The notes under the pieces are model-generated. The model was not told where the DNA came from, searched no databases, and was given only the letters and a program-made list of their open reading frames with translations. From NCBI GenBank assembly GCA_028287035.1, contig JAQBQL010000186.1, positions 1 to 64,000 of the forward strand: a DNA stretch of 64,000 nucleotides, read 5' to 3'. Positions 28,315 to 35,067 of the stretch are shown here, one piece after another. Source of the DNA: Labilithrix sp. (GTDB lineage Bacteria > Myxococcota > Polyangia > Polyangiales > Polyangiaceae). The translations under genes and the position numbers were made by a program. Numbering within the stretch: the first letter of the stretch is position 1; each line of letters opens with the position of its first letter.

Positions 28315-29052
28315 TCACTGGAAGCCGCGCGGGGGCAGGCTCCTCAGGTACGTGATGAGCCCATCCTTCTGGGCGTCCGTGACGTTCCACCGGTGCTGCG
28401 TGGTGCCGTCCCCGATCTTGATGACCGACGGGCCGGGCTTCACGCCGGTCGTGATGATGACGCCGATCTCCTGGTCGGACGCGGTGCCGAGCGCGGCCGA
28501 CGAATGGTCGACCGCCGAATCTCCGGCGTGGCAGGAGGTGCACGGGCGATCGGCGCCGGTCCCCGCGGCCTGGTACCGCGCCTCGCCGACCGCGTAGCGT
28601 GAAGGATCGTACGCGGTGATCGTCACGGTCGCGGTCGTCGACCTTCCGCGTGAGGTCGCGGTGAGGGTCACGGTGCCGGCCTTCCGGGCGCTCACGAGGA
28701 AGTACTGGCCGCTGTCGGTGACGCCGTCCTTCGTCGGGTTCACGAGGCTGGTCCTCGCGACGGACGCGAGGCTCTCGTCGGCGACGGTCACGGTCAGGTC
28801 GGCGTCCGCGTCGTACACGGCGACGGGCACCTGGAAGGCGTGCGTTCCGTCACTCCCCGTGAACACCGCGCCCGGGCGGAAGAGCAGCTCGCCGAGGCCG
28901 GAGCCCGGCGGCGCCGCCGAGTCGTAGGTGCTGCCGTCGCGCGCGCCGGCGTCCGCTGCCTCGTCGTCGTCGACGAGGACCTCCTTCGTGCTCGAGCAGG
29001 CGGCGAGCGACACGACCAGCGCTGCGCCGGCGAGGACCACGGAGGATCTCAT
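28315..29052 (-). CDS. Lipoprotein with Ig-like region and one c-type haem motif
   Basis: 245 residues from the ATG at 29052 (an in-frame start at 29100 would put 16 residues before the signal). Lipobox SLAAC (Cys19), acidic DAG-type spacer, an Ig-like beta-sandwich (about 65-165: VPVAVYDADADLTVTVADESLASV ... SARKAGTVTLTATSRGRSTTATVTI), then a single haem-binding CTSCH followed by a small cytochrome-c-like tail (EIGVIITTGVKPGPSVIKIGDG ... LITYLRSLPPRGF). It probably carries electrons at the periplasm or cell surface. Partner unknown. Confidence 0.82.
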   Translation of the reverse strand: MRSSVVLAGAALVVSLAACSSTKEVLVDDDEAADAGARDGSTYDSAAPPGSGLGELLFRPGAVFTGSDGTHAFQVPVAVYDADADLTVTVADESLASVARTSLVNPTKDGVTDSGQYFLVSARKAGTVTLTATSRGRSTTATVTITAYDPSRYAVGEARYQAAGTGADRPCTSCHAGDSAVDHSSAALGTASDQEIGVIITTGVKPGPSVIKIGDGTTQHRWNVTDAQKDGLITYLRSLPPRGFQ

Positions 29053-29192
29053 CGACGGCGGGACCAGCAACCGTCGTGCCGGTAGGAAGGGAGGCGTCAC
29101 GGCCCTGATCCCGCGTGGATCGCGAGCTCCGGCGCGTCATCCGCGCGTGCGCCTGGATCGTCGGAGGACCGGGCTGCGCGCCGAGGACCCGC

Positions 29193-30632
29193 TCAGTTCC
29201 CGTCGCTCTGCGCCGGCGCCTCGGTGGCGAGGCTCGCCGCCGGCTCGCGCGCGCCCTGGGTCTCGATCTCGCCGCTGGTCACCTCGACCTCGGAGGTGCC
29301 GGGCTCGGCCGCCGGAGCCGCGAGCGACGCCGCCGCCGGCCCGACCGACGAGGTGCGTACGTCGGGGTCGAGCGCGAGGTCCACGACCAGCGCGGTCGCC
29401 GACATCACGAACGTGACGACCGACGCGCCGACCGCCATCCACGCCCGCGCCCGCTTCGCGCGAGGCCCGGGGGGCATCATGACCTCCCGGGGACGGCGCC
29501 TCGCGATGCAGGAGCCGCGGTCGGCGCGCGGGTCGTAGCCGCAGGTGTCGATGGTGGTGAACGAGAGACGCTCCGGCTCCTCGATGGTGACGGCGGGCGG
29601 CATCGCGAGCCGGTCGAGGATCACCGCGTCCTCGTCGAGATCGAACTGCGGGTACTCGCGCGCCGGGCGCACCGAGACGCGCGCGACGTTGATGGCCTTG
29701 CGCTGCTCGGCGATGGCGGGCCCCGCCACCTGGAGGACCAGGTCGGCGACGTCGTCCCGCGAGGCGGCACCCGGGAGCGCGGCCTCCAGCGCGCCCTGGA
29801 GCTCGCGGATGGTGGCGAAGCGGTCCTCCGGCAGGCGCGCGAGGCAGCGGGCGATGACGGCATCGAGCGCGCTCGGCACGGCGCCGTTGACGGAGGCGGC
29901 GCTCGGCACGGCGGCGTCGAGCGTGAGACGGAGGGACTCGGCGGGGCTCGCGCCGCGGAACAGGTTCTTGCCGGTGACCGTCTCCCAGAGGACGACGCCG
30001 AGCGCGAACATGTCGGACTGCGCCGAGAACCGCGCGCCCTTCAGGTACTCGGGCGCCATGTAGCCGAGCTTGCCCGGCGGCTCGTACTCCTTCACCTCGA
30101 CGTCGTCGCGGTGGTTGGTCTTCGCGATGCCGAAGTCGGTGAGGCGCGCGAGTCCGTCGGTGTCGATGAGGATGTTCTGCGGGGACACGTCTCGGTGCAC
30201 GAGGCCGAGCGCCTCGCCATCCTCGTTCCTGGCGAGGTGAATCGCGTGGAGCGCGGCGCACGCATCCAGGCCGATGCGCACCGCGATCGGCAACGCGAGC
30301 GCTCCCGTCGTAGCGAGGAGGTGCGCGAGCGAGGTGCCCTCGACGTAGTCCATGACGAGGAGGAGCTCGCCGTCCGTCTCCTCGACGTCGTCGACGCTCA
30401 CCACGTTCGGGTGCCGCACGGCCGACGCGATGCGCGCCTCGGTGAGGATGGCGGCGCGGAGCTCGGGGTCACCGAGGAGGTGAGGATGCGCGCGCTTGAT
30501 GGCGACCGGCCGCTTGAACCCCGCGGCGCCGCGCTGGATGCCGACGTACACCGAGCCCATGCCCCCCGTCGCGATGCAGCTCGCGATCCGGTAGCGAGCA
30601 GAGGACGGGAGAGTATCGGACGGCTCGCTCAT
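29193..30632 (-). CDS. Membrane Ser/Thr protein kinase
   Basis: 479 residues. N-terminal kinase domain with TGGMGSVY (22-29), Lys46 (VAIKRA), HRDVSPQN (146-153), DFG (166-168) and YMAPEYLKG. The HRDVSPQN loop instead of HRDLKPEN is a common myxobacterial variant. After a linker and a basic patch (RAKRARAW) comes one membrane helix (about 390-415) and an Ala/Glu-rich extracytoplasmic tail of about 65 residues without a recognisable sensor fold. Divergent from the ECF sigma gene; the 218-base gap between them holds the sigma-gene promoter element. Confidence 0.92.
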   Translation of the reverse strand: MSEPSDTLPSSARYRIASCIATGGMGSVYVGIQRGAAGFKRPVAIKRAHPHLLGDPELRAAILTEARIASAVRHPNVVSVDDVEETDGELLLVMDYVEGTSLAHLLATTGALALPIAVRIGLDACAALHAIHLARNEDGEALGLVHRDVSPQNILIDTDGLARLTDFGIAKTNHRDDVEVKEYEPPGKLGYMAPEYLKGARFSAQSDMFALGVVLWETVTGKNLFRGASPAESLRLTLDAAVPSAASVNGAVPSALDAVIARCLARLPEDRFATIRELQGALEAALPGAASRDDVADLVLQVAGPAIAEQRKAINVARVSVRPAREYPQFDLDEDAVILDRLAMPPAVTIEEPERLSFTTIDTCGYDPRADRGSCIARRRPREVMMPPGPRAKRARAWMAVGASVVTFVMSATALVVDLALDPDVRTSSVGPAAASLAAPAAEPGTSEVEVTSGEIETQGAREPAASLATEAPAQSDGN

Positions 30633-30810: not shown

Positions 30811-30841
30811 TGTAACTCCGGACGAGGCTCTGCCACATTCC
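30811..30841 (+). promoter_or_regulatory. ECF-type promoter of the sigma-factor gene
   Basis: TGTAACTCC, 12 bases, GCCACATTCC. The same bipartite sequence with the same spacing recurs at 32004-32034 before the DsbA-like gene. The TGTAAC block is of the kind ECF sigma factors recognise at -35. Since the ATG at 30851 begins 9 bases after the second block, the transcript is nearly leaderless. Autoregulation is expected for an ECF factor. Confidence 0.6.
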
Positions 30842-30850
30842 CCCGTGGCC

Positions 30851-31459
30851 ATGGCTCCGCACGCTGGCTGGGCTGCTGCCCTGCTCTCCACCACCGCCTC
30901 GGCGTCCGACGAGCGGGCGAGCGAGGTCGCGTCCGGCGAGGGCCGCGCGCTCGCCGCGACCTACGCCGTGCGCGCGCCCGGCATCCGGCGCTTCCTCCAC
31001 GGCCTGCTCGGCGAGGCCGCCGCGGCGGACGACGCGACCCAGGAGACGTTCGCGCGCGCCTGCGTGCGGATGGACACGCTCCGCGATCCCGACCGGATCG
31101 CGCCATGGCTCTTCGGCATCGCGCGGAACGTCGCCCTCGAGACCCTCAAGGAGCGCCGCCGCCGCCGTCGCCTCGTCGATCCCGATGCCGACGTCGACGA
31201 CGGGAACGAGGGCGCGGACCACGTGACGCCGGAGTCGACGCTGCTCGGCCGGGAAGCGGTCGGCGTCGTCGACCGCGCGCTCGCCCGCCTCTCCACCCCG
31301 CGCCGCGCGGTCCTCATGCTGCGCCTCGATCACGCCATCGCCTACGAGGACATCGCCGAGCTCATGGGGTGGTCCGTCGCCAAGACCAAGGTCGAGATCC
31401 ACCGCGCCCGCGCCGTGCTCCGCGAGGAGCTCGCGCGCTACGAAGGAGAAACGTCGTGA
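30851..31459 (+). CDS. ECF RNA polymerase sigma factor
   Basis: 202 residues from the ATG at 30851. Region 2 is seen in GIRRFLHGLLGEAAAADDATQETFARACVRMDTLRDPDRIAPWLFGIARNVA and region 4 in RLSTPRRAVLMLRLDHAIAYEDIAELMGWSVAKTKVEIHRARAVLREEL. There is no region 1 or 3, as usual for group IV factors. The stop overlaps the anti-sigma start (GTGA), so the pair is translationally coupled. An upstream in-frame ATG at 30752 would put the promoter element inside the gene and is rejected. Confidence 0.93.
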   Translation: MAPHAGWAAALLSTTASASDERASEVASGEGRALAATYAVRAPGIRRFLHGLLGEAAAADDATQETFARACVRMDTLRDPDRIAPWLFGIARNVALETLKERRRRRRLVDPDADVDDGNEGADHVTPESTLLGREAVGVVDRALARLSTPRRAVLMLRLDHAIAYEDIAELMGWSVAKTKVEIHRARAVLREELARYEGETS

Positions 31460-32022
31460 CCAGCGATTGCGACTTCGACGCGCTCGAGTCCCTCGTCCTC
31501 GGGGAGCTCACCGCCGCAGCAGCGGCACGCGTCTCCGGGCACGCGACGACCTGCGCGGCGTGCACGGGCGAGCTCGCGCTCCTTCGCGCCGAGCGCGCGG
31601 CGTTCGCGGCCCGCGCCGAGCACCTCGCAGCGTCCCACGAGACGCCGGCGCTCACCGCGGTCGCGTCGCTGCCGGTGGCCGTCCCGCCCGTGAGCGCCCA
31701 CGTCCGCTCGCGCCGCCTCCGGTTGGTCGCGGCGCCGGCCGCCGTGGCGATCCTCGCGCTCGCCGCCGCGCTCACGCTCCGCCTCCGCGCCGCGGCCGAC
31801 GTCGATCCCGCCCTCACCAGCAGTGGTCCGGCGCCGATCGCCGCCGATCCTGCAGCCTCGGCGCTGGTGTGCCGCGAGGACGAGCCCGCGCGCCCACGCC
31901 TTCGCACGAGCCCGTTCGCATGCGAGGAGCCGCGCGATCCGGCGACCGAGGTGGAGCCGCGCGCATGCGCAGCGTCGTGCGGTCGGACATGCGCCGCCGA
32001 GAGTGTAACTCCCGCGCCCTGA
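31456..32022 (+). CDS. Zinc-finger anti-sigma factor with Cys-rich extracytoplasmic tail
   Basis: 188 residues from a GTG overlapping the sigma-gene stop. The N-terminal cytoplasmic part has the anti-sigma zinc motif His29-x3-Cys33-x2-Cys36 (GHATTCAAC), then one membrane helix (about 90-108). The roughly 80-residue outer tail contains five cysteines (139, 156, 171, 175, 179; CAASCGRTC at the end). It should hold the ECF factor at the membrane. The outer cysteines and the DsbA-like gene next door suggest that the signal is the thiol/disulfide state outside the membrane (inference). The promoter of the next gene overlaps its last codons. Confidence 0.82.
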   Translation: MTSDCDFDALESLVLGELTAAAAARVSGHATTCAACTGELALLRAERAAFAARAEHLAASHETPALTAVASLPVAVPPVSAHVRSRRLRLVAAPAAVAILALAAALTLRLRAAADVDPALTSSGPAPIAADPAASALVCREDEPARPRLRTSPFACEEPRDPATEVEPRACAASCGRTCAAESVTPAP

Positions 32023-32034
32023 TCGCCACTCTCC
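32004..32034 (+). promoter_or_regulatory. ECF-type promoter of the DsbA-like gene
   Basis: TGTAACTCC, 12 bases, GCCACTCTCC: 9/9 match to the first block and 8/10 to the second block of the element before the sigma gene, with identical spacing. It starts inside the anti-sigma gene and ends 44 bases before the ATG at 32079. Confidence 0.6.
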
Positions 32035-32078
32035 TCCGACGGCGCGCCACGAACGGCGCTGCCGAAAAGGAGAGAACC

Positions 32079-32786
32079 ATGAGATCGAACCTCGCCCTCG
32101 CCGCGACCATCGCCGCGACCCTCATCGCGTGCAGCCAGGGCTCGTCGGACCCGACGCTCACCGATCCCGCGAAGAAGACCGCCTCGGCCGCGCTCGCCGA
32201 AGCGCCCACGCCGGACACCAATTGCGGACCGTGCGGCGACAAGGACACCGTCGAGGACAGCCCGCGCACCGAGACGATCAACCTCGGCTCTTCACCCACG
32301 CGCGGCCCCGACGCCGCCCCCGTCACGATCGTCGTCTTTTCGGATTTCGAGTGCTCCTATTGTGCGAAGTCCGAGGCGACCTTGCGCGAGCTCGAGGCGA
32401 CGTATGGTGCCAAGGTGCGCTTCGTCTTCAAGAACGCGCCGCTGCCCATGCACGCCCACGCGCGGCTCGCCGCGAAGGCCGCCCTCGCCGCCGGCCAGCA
32501 GGGGAAGTTCTGGCCGTACCACGACGCGCTCTTCGCGGCGCAGGGCTCGCTCGATCAGGCAGGGCTCGAGCAGACCGCCGCGCGCGTCGGGCTCGACGTC
32601 GCGAAGTTCCGGCGCGCGCTCGCGAGCCAGGAGCTCGACGCCGCGCTCGAAGCCGACCTCGCCGAGGCGCGCCGGCTCGACGTGAAGGGCACGCCTGCGT
32701 TCTTCATCAATGGCAAGAACCTGCAGGGCGCGCAGCCCGCATCCGCCTTCAAGGCGAGGATCGATCAGGCGCTCGCCGAGCGCTGA
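32079..32786 (+). CDS. DsbA-like thiol-disulfide lipoprotein
   Basis: 235 residues; AAGGAGAG lies before the ATG at 32079. Lipobox TLIAC (Cys18), a spacer with an extra CGPC tetrapeptide (49-52), then a DsbA/thioredoxin-type fold: VTIVVFSDFECSYCAKS with active-site CSYC (92-95), a helical insert (HAHARLAAKAALAAGQQGKFWPYHDALF) and the cis-Pro loop VKGTPAFFINGK. It resembles DsbA-family oxidoreductases (BdbD/DsbG-like) that form or reshuffle disulfides outside the membrane. Likely controlled by the ECF factor encoded just upstream. Its 3' end overlaps the convergent symporter gene by 22 bases. Confidence 0.9.
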   Translation: MRSNLALAATIAATLIACSQGSSDPTLTDPAKKTASAALAEAPTPDTNCGPCGDKDTVEDSPRTETINLGSSPTRGPDAAPVTIVVFSDFECSYCAKSEATLRELEATYGAKVRFVFKNAPLPMHAHARLAAKAALAAGQQGKFWPYHDALFAAQGSLDQAGLEQTAARVGLDVAKFRRALASQELDAALEADLAEARRLDVKGTPAFFINGKNLQGAQPASAFKARIDQALAER

Positions 32787-34108
32787 TCGGAAGGCGGCGC
32801 GTCCACCGGGACCGGCACCTCACCGAAGACGCCTTCCCAGCGCGCGATGACGCACGCCGCGAGGCCGTTGCCGGTGAGGTTCAGCGCGGAGCGCGCCATG
32901 TCCATGATCTCGTCCACGGCGAGGATCATGGCGACACCCGCCTCGCCGGGAAGACCGAAGCCGCCCGCGGTGCCCGCGATGATGACGAGCGTCGCGCGCG
33001 GCACCCCGGCGACTCCCTTCGAGGTGAGCATGAACGTGAAGACCATCGCCAGCTGCGTGCCGATCGACATCTCGATCTTCGCCGCCTGCGCGATGGTCAG
33101 TGAAGCCAGCACGAGATAGAGCGTCGAGCCGTCCAGATTGAACGAATACCCGGTGGGGATGACGAAGCTGCCGACCCGGCGCGGCACGCCGAACTTCTCC
33201 ATCTGCTCGAGAAGGCGCGGAAGCGCCGCCTCGCTCGACGCCGTGGAGAAGGCAAGCGTCGCGGGCTCCCGGATGTGGCGCAGGAACCCGAGGATCGGGA
33301 TGCGGAAGATCAGCATCACCGGCACGAGCACCAGCACGAAGAAGAGCACCAGCGACAGGTACAGACTGCCCACGAGCACCGAGTAGTGCTTCAGCAGGTC
33401 GAGCACCGCCGGCCATCCCTCGAGGCCGTTGCCGCCCTGCCCGGAGGCCATGTGGCTCACGTTGTACGCCATCGCGCCGAACACGCCGATGGGCGTGAGC
33501 GACATGATCATCGCCGTGTACTTGAACATCACCTGCGCGACGCCATCGAAGAACGCGAGCACCGGCGCGCCCCGCGGCCCGATGCGCGTCAGCGCCACGC
33601 CGAACAGCGTCGCGAACACCACGACCGGAAGGATGTCGCCCTTGGCGGCATGCTCGATCAGGTTCGAGGGAAAGGCGTGGAGCGCGATGTCCCAGCCGCT
33701 CTTCGGCGTGGCGAGCACCGCATGCGCGTCGGCCTTGAGCGGCAGGCCGTCGCCGGGACGAAGCCAGTTCGCGATGACCAGCCCGAGCAGCAGCGCGAAG
33801 GTGGTCACCACCTCGAAGTAGAGGAGCGACTTGGCGCCCATGCGCCCGACCGCCTTGAGATCGCCGGTCTGCGCGATGCCGGTGATGATCGTCGACACCA
33901 GCAGCGGGACGATGATCCCCTTGATGAGCGCGAGAAAGCCCTTCGAGCAGAACTGGAAGAACGCGAACGCCACCGGGTGCTGGTCGGCGGGAAGGAAGCC
34001 GCCCACCAGCACGCCGAGCACGAGCCCGGTGAAGATGAGCGCCGTGCCCGAGCGCCAGAACGGCTTCCGCGGGGCTGCCGGCGAAGGGGCCGCCGCCTCG
34101 CCGCTCAT
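32765..34108 (-). CDS. Dicarboxylate/glutamate:cation symporter (DAACS family)
   Basis: 447 residues, eight-helix-plus-hairpin fold of GltP/DctA carriers. Signatures are SLTPIGVFGAMAY, the Ser-rich hairpin AFSTASSEAALPRLLEQME, FVIPTGYSFNLDGSTLYL (NMDGT-like motif) and the second hairpin SKGVAGVPRATLVIIAGTA, plus LAVDEIMDMARSALNLTGN in helix 8. It takes up C4-dicarboxylates or acidic amino acids with protons or sodium. Its ATG at 34108 shares a base with the acyltransferase stop (TGATG), so it belongs to the ether-lipid operon although the link is not obvious. Confidence 0.93.
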   Translation of the reverse strand: MSGEAAAPSPAAPRKPFWRSGTALIFTGLVLGVLVGGFLPADQHPVAFAFFQFCSKGFLALIKGIIVPLLVSTIITGIAQTGDLKAVGRMGAKSLLYFEVVTTFALLLGLVIANWLRPGDGLPLKADAHAVLATPKSGWDIALHAFPSNLIEHAAKGDILPVVVFATLFGVALTRIGPRGAPVLAFFDGVAQVMFKYTAMIMSLTPIGVFGAMAYNVSHMASGQGGNGLEGWPAVLDLLKHYSVLVGSLYLSLVLFFVLVLVPVMLIFRIPILGFLRHIREPATLAFSTASSEAALPRLLEQMEKFGVPRRVGSFVIPTGYSFNLDGSTLYLVLASLTIAQAAKIEMSIGTQLAMVFTFMLTSKGVAGVPRATLVIIAGTAGGFGLPGEAGVAMILAVDEIMDMARSALNLTGNGLAACVIARWEGVFGEVPVPVDAPPSDQRSASA

Positions 34109-35067
34109 CAACGCCCGTCGTGCGACGCGGGATCGGGGCCCCGCTCGGCCGCGGCGTGCTTCGCCTTGGCCGCCGCGGTGCGCCGCCCGTCGTCCGACTT
34201 CGCGATGTCCTTCACCGCGGCGGGGTCCTGTCCTGCGAGCGCGGCGGTCATGCGGCGCTGCTCGTCGGCGAGGACCTTGATCGCGTCGAGGCACCGATCC
34301 GCGGCGCGCTTCTGCGACGTGATCATCTTGGCCTTCGGGCGCAGGTCCGAGAAATCGATCGGCTTGCCGAAGTACACGTCGACCGGCGTCTCGCTGGCGC
34401 GGAGGAAGTTGTTCCGCCACTCGCCGGGGATGCTCTGGCCCATGCCGATGACGAACACGGGAATCACGTGCGCGCGCGTGGCGCCGAGCGCGACGCGCCC
34501 CACGCCGGGCTGCGCGGGCAGGAACTGGTAAGGGTCGTCGCTCTTGTTGCGCGTGCCCTCGGGATGGATGCCGAGCACCGTCCCGATGTCCGGCCGGTTC
34601 AGCTCCTCGATGCAGCGCTGCACGGAGTACGTGTTGAAGGCCTTCTTCTCCTTGTCGCGCATGATCGGCGGGAACATGCGCATGCCGCTCATCGCGAAGT
34701 TGACGATGGGCCCGAGCGCCGAGTCGTAGAAGAAGTTCTGACGGACCGGGAAGAAGATCCGCTTGGTGAGCCGCGTGCGCCAGTAGAGGAGCGCGGTGAT
34801 CGTGAAGAAGTCGAAGAACGACCGGTGGTTCGCGACGAGGAGGATCGAATCCTTCTTGCCGAACGGCGCGAGGTTCTCGAGCCCGTGGATCCGGAAACGA
34901 CGACCGCCACAGCTGTAGATCAGCGCGCCCATGACGACGCTGTTCCAGTTGGCGGAGAGCGGGGTGAGCGCCGGAGCGGAGAGCGCATCGGCGATTCGGA
35001 ACGACGCACGCTCGAAGAACGTCAGCGGCGCGAGCTGCTCGGGAGTGGGACGCACGGCCGGGGTCAT
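34108..35067 (-). CDS. PlsC-type acyltransferase, probably for ether-lipid synthesis
   Basis: 319 residues from the ATG at 35067 (a TTG four codons upstream is less likely). Acyltransferase motifs: ANHRSFFDFF (NHx4D), FPPIMRDKEKKAF, HPEGTRNKSD and VIPVFVIG. One weak membrane segment in the N-terminal part. It could act as a DHAP or lysophosphatidate acyltransferase. It follows the alkyl-DHAP synthase-like gene by 22 bases; that enzyme needs 1-acyl-DHAP, so DHAP acyltransferase is an attractive assignment (inference). The C-terminal ~45 residues are charged and low-complexity. Confidence 0.88.
   Translation of the reverse strand: MTPAVRPTPEQLAPLTFFERASFRIADALSAPALTPLSANWNSVVMGALIYSCGGRRFRIHGLENLAPFGKKDSILLVANHRSFFDFFTITALLYWRTRLTKRIFFPVRQNFFYDSALGPIVNFAMSGMRMFPPIMRDKEKKAFNTYSVQRCIEELNRPDIGTVLGIHPEGTRNKSDDPYQFLPAQPGVGRVALGATRAHVIPVFVIGMGQSIPGEWRNNFLRASETPVDVYFGKPIDFSDLRPKAKMITSQKRAADRCLDAIKVLADEQRRMTAALAGQDPAAVKDIAKSDDGRRTAAAKAKHAAAERGPDPASHDGR

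Follow-up and report, generated by a model that had tools for sequence, protein, structure and literature searches.

Does a sigma factor of the extracytoplasmic function (ECF) type adjust the production of a disulfide enzyme to the thiol state outside the cytoplasm? The question is raised by three consecutive genes in a 64-kb stretch of Labilithrix sp. DNA (contig JAQBQL010000186.1, positions 1 to 64,000, hereafter the window), which encode an ECF sigma factor, a single-pass anti-sigma factor with cysteines outside the membrane and a DsbA-like lipoprotein. An earlier note on this DNA had proposed that the sigma gene and the DsbA-like gene share a promoter and form a circuit. On balance, the comparisons described here incline us towards a nearly private ECF circuit in which the outer cysteines of the anti-sigma factor would sense thiol state and the sigma factor would control the lipoprotein. 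The locus consists of the following features:

30811..30837, + strand: promoter P1 of the sigma gene, TGTAAC-N15-GCCACA; exact match, recurs at related loci
30845..31459, + strand: ECF sigma factor gene with a GTG start; from Pfam matches and start-position alignment
31456..32022, + strand: gene for the single-pass anti-sigma factor, overlapping the sigma gene by 4 nt; from sequence and structure model
31540..31563, + strand: inner zinc motif of the anti-sigma factor, HATTCAAC (Hx3Cx2C); from sequence
31780..32019, + strand: outer tail of the anti-sigma factor with Cys 139, 156, 171, 175 and 179; from sequence and low-confidence model
32004..32030, + strand: promoter P2 of the DsbA-like gene; exact match, starts inside the 3' end of the anti-sigma gene
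32079..32786, + strand: gene for the DsbA-like lipoprotein, with lipobox C18, linker CGPC 49-52, active site CSYC 92-95 and GTP loop

A duplicated promoter element conserved with the operon

The element TGTAACTCC-N12-GCCAC matched the window exactly at 30811-30836 and 32004-32029, both on the + strand, confirming the identical spacing that had been claimed before the sigma and DsbA-like genes. Allowing up to three mismatches gave six matches against 2.55 expected, a number reached in 7 of 100 shuffles, so that only the two exact copies stand out. The hexamer TGTAAC occurs only twice in the window (70.6% G+C) when both strands are counted, at P1 and at P2, and a weight matrix built from 22 sites of other genomes with the window pair excluded ranked 32004 first and 30811 second among 127,948 positions. 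The likely start of the sigma gene is the GTG at 30845, 34 nt from the T of TGTAAC, and P2 sits within the last codons of the anti-sigma gene.

Homologues were gathered by sigma similarity only, ignoring DsbA, and the anti-sigma gene was read from context; the sigma protein was chosen because the anti-sigma protein, used as query, recovered only itself among 7995 scored candidates. The sigma search identified 12 of 240 genomes at E <=1e-35 and, within one family, 10 of 108 at 1e-40, giving 17 loci. Names among the sigma homologues (Byssovorax, Polyangiaceae, Sorangium) suggest myxobacteria of the class Polyangia. The DsbA-like gene directly follows the anti-sigma gene at 11 of the 17 (L049-L058, L062) and is missing from the other six (L059-L061, L063, L064, L029). 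A profile search of 317 genomes of the class returned 22 matches at 1e-40, the top group being the same 11 loci, which are the rows of the model; among the other 11 matches a DsbA-like gene was found only at L100, within the stretches examined. Besides the window, 12 of the 317 genomes were therefore seen to have the order of sigma factor, one-helix anti-sigma factor and DsbA-like lipoprotein. Sampling 377 genomes across the phylum added none: the eight sigma matches at 1e-55 all lay in genomes already known, five of the eight with the operon. A plasmid search with the sigma factor yielded distant matches only. Alignment A4 comprised 19 sequences; L004 was omitted for a stop in the stretch, and L015, L016, L018, L019 and L021-L028 were left out.

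A sister sigma group (L059-L061, L106-L110, L029) is paired with anti-sigma factors whose outer tails are long and full of SGDV repeats. The stretches examined there showed no DsbA-like gene; those of L106-L110 end about 1.5 kb beyond the sigma match and that of L029 spans 3.4 kb in all, leaving room for a more distant gene. The wider control loci L059, L060, L061, L063 and L064 contain no DsbA gene.

P1 precedes the sigma gene at 12 of 12 loci as [TC]GTAAC followed at the same distance by GCMA, and at the thirteenth, L100, as CGAAAC, a form recognised by eye. The sigma start codon lies 34-35 nt from P1 at 12 of the 13 loci (39 nt at L055), a distance from which a leaderless sigma mRNA is predicted. 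P2 was found at or within the 3' end of the anti-sigma gene at every locus except L053 (12 of 13). GTAAC served as the seed for P1 and P2 and is invariant by construction; the distances to GCMA and to the start codon are independent of it. At the six related loci without DsbA there was no GTAAC with GCMA at the P2 distance, and two of them (L059, L029) carry a bare GTAAC lacking GCMA near the anti-sigma end. An extra upstream GTAAC without GCMA was also present at L050.

Both genes flanking the window operon, a protein kinase gene (29193-30632) and a dicarboxylate symporter gene (32765-34117), are on the opposite strand, so that the unit comprises three genes. Further upstream, 28315-29100 on the - strand encodes a predicted lipoprotein with a single CTSCH motif of the haem c type and no Pfam match.

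Few matches to the element outside the operon

The earlier note had called for a genome search for the element before other genes, and this was carried out in related genomes. The pattern TGTAACY-N14-GCCAY was searched across 16 genomes, 12 with the operon and 4 without, with the reversed pattern as control; one of the 12, G252, had entered as a supposed operon-less genome and proved to have the operon. The 12 operon genomes gave 14 matches, nine of them inside the operon, leaving five strays against seven reversed-control matches, and three genomes of 10.8, 14.8 and 8.5 Mb (G210, G294, G181) had the two operon sites and no other match. In the four genomes without the operon the reversed pattern matched 12 times and the pattern itself 6 times. 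A second pattern, CGTAACTT-N13-GCMA, gave nine matches in six operon genomes, eight in the operon and one stray, with none for the reversed pattern, and 4 against 12 reversed in six operon-less genomes. Taking both searches together, 17 of 23 matches in operon genomes fell in the operon and the six strays were not above the reversed controls. Both patterns are strict and skip some operon sites, and weaker targets may escape them. Recurrence of the elements at 12-13 loci, with matches elsewhere at or below background, gives the claimed shared-promoter circuit strong support from conservation, and reading of these promoters by the sigma factor appears well supported.

Three strays, all in operon genomes, precede a start codon at 34-35 nt and a frame of more than 100 residues. 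At L081 (G265:C1407, site 1501, reverse strand) the promoter copy is 35 nt from the ATG of a gene whose product has a hydrophobic N-terminus and two DSBA domains. G265 is the one genome whose operon lacks P2, and retargeting of the sigma factor to this tandem-DSBA gene is possible. At L069 (G188:C34, site 1501, reverse strand) the GTG of a cupin-domain gene follows a copy at 34 nt; the encoded protein starts with a lipobox-like sequence, and the gene is possibly a further sigma target. A copy at L124, also in G188, lies 34 nt before a 170-residue frame without a Pfam match.

The anti-sigma factors retain cysteines outside the membrane

The window sigma factor matched Sigma70_r2 (3.7e-11) and Sigma70_r4_2 (1.7e-09) above both Pfam cut-offs when scanned from 30851, and with these two regions and about 200 residues it fits the ECF type. 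Its anti-sigma partner has cysteines at 5, 33, 36, 139, 156, 171, 175 and 179, which include all five outer cysteines listed in the earlier note, and carries H29-x3-C33-x2-C36 inside; the hydrophobic stretch spans 90-108. The structure model (mean predicted local distance difference test score, pLDDT, 68.2) has a confident helical N-terminal part with helices at 7-14, 20-32 and 34-59, a helix at 88-114, no secondary structure beyond residue 120 and a tail mostly below 50. The zinc motif lies over helices 2-3, as in class I zinc-type anti-sigma domains. The zf-HC2 family matched the window protein at E 0.0036 with 17.8 bits against a cut-off of 22.2, and matched 6 of 12 members at E <=0.1; a PDB sequence search with the inner part found no match. 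Invariant inner residues among 12 aligned members are E46, F50 and R53.

No residue outside the membrane is invariant, and each tail keeps at least two cysteines. Conservation of the outer cysteines in orthologs had been set beforehand as a critical test, and they were retained in all 13 tails, at 2-7 per tail and with varying number and spacing. Together the 13 tails hold 57 cysteines in 1109 residues (5.1% as compared to 1.4% in ten window genes). A cysteine pair, a gap of 14-32 residues and a second pair form a recurring layout from which some members deviate. At the related loci lacking DsbA, the anti-sigma factors either have no outer cysteine or carry 2-3 in a long tail of SGDV repeats.

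The inner zinc motif is absent from 6 of 13 anti-sigma factors (L050, L053, L054, L055, L062, L100). On the sigma tree this corresponds to three changes, at least two of which are forced by well-supported branches, with six forks open. Its absence from these six, together with outer cysteines in every tail, makes sensing outside the membrane likelier than sensing of the RsrA type.

A DsbA-like lipoprotein in genomes with VKOR

The window lipoprotein has the inserted-helix thioredoxin fold, CxxC motif (CSYC) and Pro loop (GTP) of a DsbA-like / Thioredoxin_4 oxidoreductase, and its nearest fold and sequence neighbours are BdbD, TsdA and ScsC. It scored 94.7 bits against the NCBIfam model Rcas_1661, a thioredoxin-like (seleno)lipoprotein, below the 190-bit cut-off; the model was matched by all 12 aligned lipoprotein members at E <=1e-5. 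Two DSBA-like domains in tandem are present in the lipoproteins of L050, L054-L058, L062 and L100, the second domain being truncated where the contig (L050) or the locus (L100) ends. In L058 and L062 CPFS replaces CPFC in one DSBA domain. Four single-domain members have a cysteine cluster between the lipobox and the DsbA domain: the window protein (CGPC, 32223-32234), L049 (CDHCDHC), L051 and L052. This cluster is possibly a second redox pair or a metal site.

DsbA oxidases donate disulfides and are reoxidised by DsbB or VKOR. VKOR was found in all 16 related genomes tested (12 with the operon), making a disulfide-forming route outside the membrane likely there, and DsbB gave no match in the same 16.

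A proposed circuit and its rivals

The anatomy, the conserved twin promoters, the few matches elsewhere and the retention of outer cysteines are read directly from the DNA. The circuit that we favour builds on them as follows. The sigma factor would read P1, before its own operon, and P2, before the lipoprotein gene, and little else. The one-helix anti-sigma factor would tether it at the inner membrane, and the cysteines of the disordered outer tail would register the thiol state outside. As long as disulfide formation suffices, the tail would most likely be oxidised and the anti-sigma factor stable; when it fails, the reduced tail would be cleaved or reshaped and the sigma factor released, raising the level of the DsbA-like lipoprotein and closing the loop. 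Promoter reading apart, sensing by the outer cysteines is the likeliest of these steps, followed in falling order by a thiol signal, release by the reduced state and proteolysis. Thiol redox is a plausible signal, and metal binding or structural disulfides fit too.

ScsC repairs metal-induced wrong disulfides, and since ScsC (suppressor of copper sensitivity) is a near neighbour of the lipoprotein in both fold and sequence, metal stress is the main rival. The outer cysteines would then bind copper, cadmium or mercury, the sigma factor would be released and the lipoprotein would repair the resulting wrong disulfides. The Cys/His-rich linker of L049 fits this explanation, as does the NrsF system, the nearest published case, whose two cysteines are periplasmic by prediction and whose response to chromium and cadmium does not depend on oxidative or disulfide stress (PMC3511200). 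Set against it, the outer tails are poor in His (0-4) and, in 11 of 13, in Met (0-2; 4 in L053, 6 in L058), and L100 has just two cysteines, 41 residues apart. Nor was any metal-resistance family found among nine scanned neighbours of the window operon, two of which had no match at all. We consider metal sensing doubtful.

Somewhat less credible is that the outer cysteines form structural disulfides only and that the signal is some other envelope stress, with the DsbA-like protein merely an output. The variable cysteine spacing and the tail modelled as unstructured are compatible with this, and the protease that cleaves RseA responds to misfolding of outer-membrane proteins (PMC8103513). However, the sole conserved output is a disulfide enzyme, and every tail holds its minimum of two cysteines even though its other residues vary.

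To cytoplasmic sensing of the RsrA/RslA type we assign only a very small probability. The window and six other members do have Hx3Cx2C, but the six that lack it retain gene order and outer cysteines, five of them with P2, and the distribution needs three changes on the sigma tree; as judged from these sequences, the cytoplasmic zinc cysteines are unlikely to be the family's sensor. That P2 is a protein-level V-T motif at the anti-sigma C-terminus and no promoter is hardly credible: 10 of 12 copies do encode V-T in the anti-sigma frame, with valine as GTA, but GTA is rare among the valine codons of ten window genes (9 of 309, 2.9%), the P1 copy is non-coding, and in two copies (L050, L055) the anti-sigma gene stops at the TAA of the element and the peptide is lost, showing that the DNA element and not the peptide is conserved.

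Several points weigh against the thiol circuit itself. The case is assembled from sequence and models. Outer cysteine number (2 in L100, 3 in L053, 7 in L049) and spacing vary such that no single disulfide pattern is kept, and the Cys-rich linkers of L049, L051 and L052 could bind metal. The GTP loop and matches to both DsbG and DsbA fit an isomerase/reductase as well as an oxidase. Elsewhere, the nearest DsbA homologues had no adjacent sigma gene at any of 28 loci, several of which span just a few kb (one sigma gene, at L013, lay about 4 kb off), which confines the sigma-DsbA link to this operon group. The regulon counts all come from related genomes.

Comparison with known systems and meaning

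Sensing of extracytoplasmic disulfide-forming capacity is best known through Cpx in Escherichia coli. There Cpx raises oxidising power in the NlpE-Cpx system, which pairs a two-component system with an outer-membrane lipoprotein and, unlike the operon, has no sigma/anti-sigma pair; NlpE is unnecessary for Cpx induction by fatty acids (PMC7598926). SigL-RslA of Mycobacterium tuberculosis resembles the operon in joining an ECF sigma factor to a membrane-associated anti-sigma factor, and SigL is among the closest solved structures to the window sigma factor. RslA, however, senses in the cytosol through the redox-active zinc cysteines of its HXXXCXXC motif (PMC2877774), the motif that nearly half of the operon anti-sigma factors lack. 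Zinc motifs occur in about 48% of membrane-bound class I anti-sigma factors, where a structural, non-sensing role has been suggested (PMC7406223), and the repeated absence in the operon agrees with such a role.

The earlier note had held that sensing outside the membrane would be something different. It does differ from cytosolic zinc sensing, but anti-sigma factors that sense outside are already known. In EcfF-OsrA of Bradyrhizobium and sigmaF-NrsF of Caulobacter (ECF16, DUF1109) the anti-sigma factor has predicted periplasmic cysteines that matter for control, as in our proposal: C179 of OsrA, proposed to be exposed to the periplasm, is required for the peroxide response (PMC3420878), and two cysteines of NrsF are probably directed into the periplasm (PMC3511200). 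Genes co-regulated with EcfF encode a periplasmic methionine sulfoxide reductase, a membrane-anchored periplasmic thioredoxin and a DsbD-like protein (PMC3420878, PMC3511200). As described in these sources, OsrA and NrsF have six predicted membrane helices and two cysteines, in contrast to the single helix, disordered tail and 2-7 cysteines of the operon proteins, and the window protein has one membrane helix in the model and no DUF1109 match. The operon circuit would also differ in having one DsbA-like lipoprotein as its near-sole target. Unlike its neighbours BdbD, TsdA and ScsC, the operon enzyme is a lipoprotein with, in many members, a Cys linker or tandem DSBA domains and a dedicated sigma gene beside it. 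No description of a one-helix anti-sigma factor with a disordered Cys tail and a near one-enzyme regulon was found in the open-licence literature.

We tentatively suggest that the operon is an undescribed envelope thiol-homeostat, in which the Cys tail may itself be a substrate of the controlled enzyme, whose activity would silence the sigma factor through a private promoter pair; one lineage may have shifted the promoter to a different gene of the DsbA family. If true, a compact unit of sensor, regulator and enzyme under its own promoter, in genomes where VKOR is present and DsbB was not detected, would offer a clean test of direct substrate-level feedback on an anti-sigma factor, and the unit could be used as a portable reporter of redox state in the periplasm.
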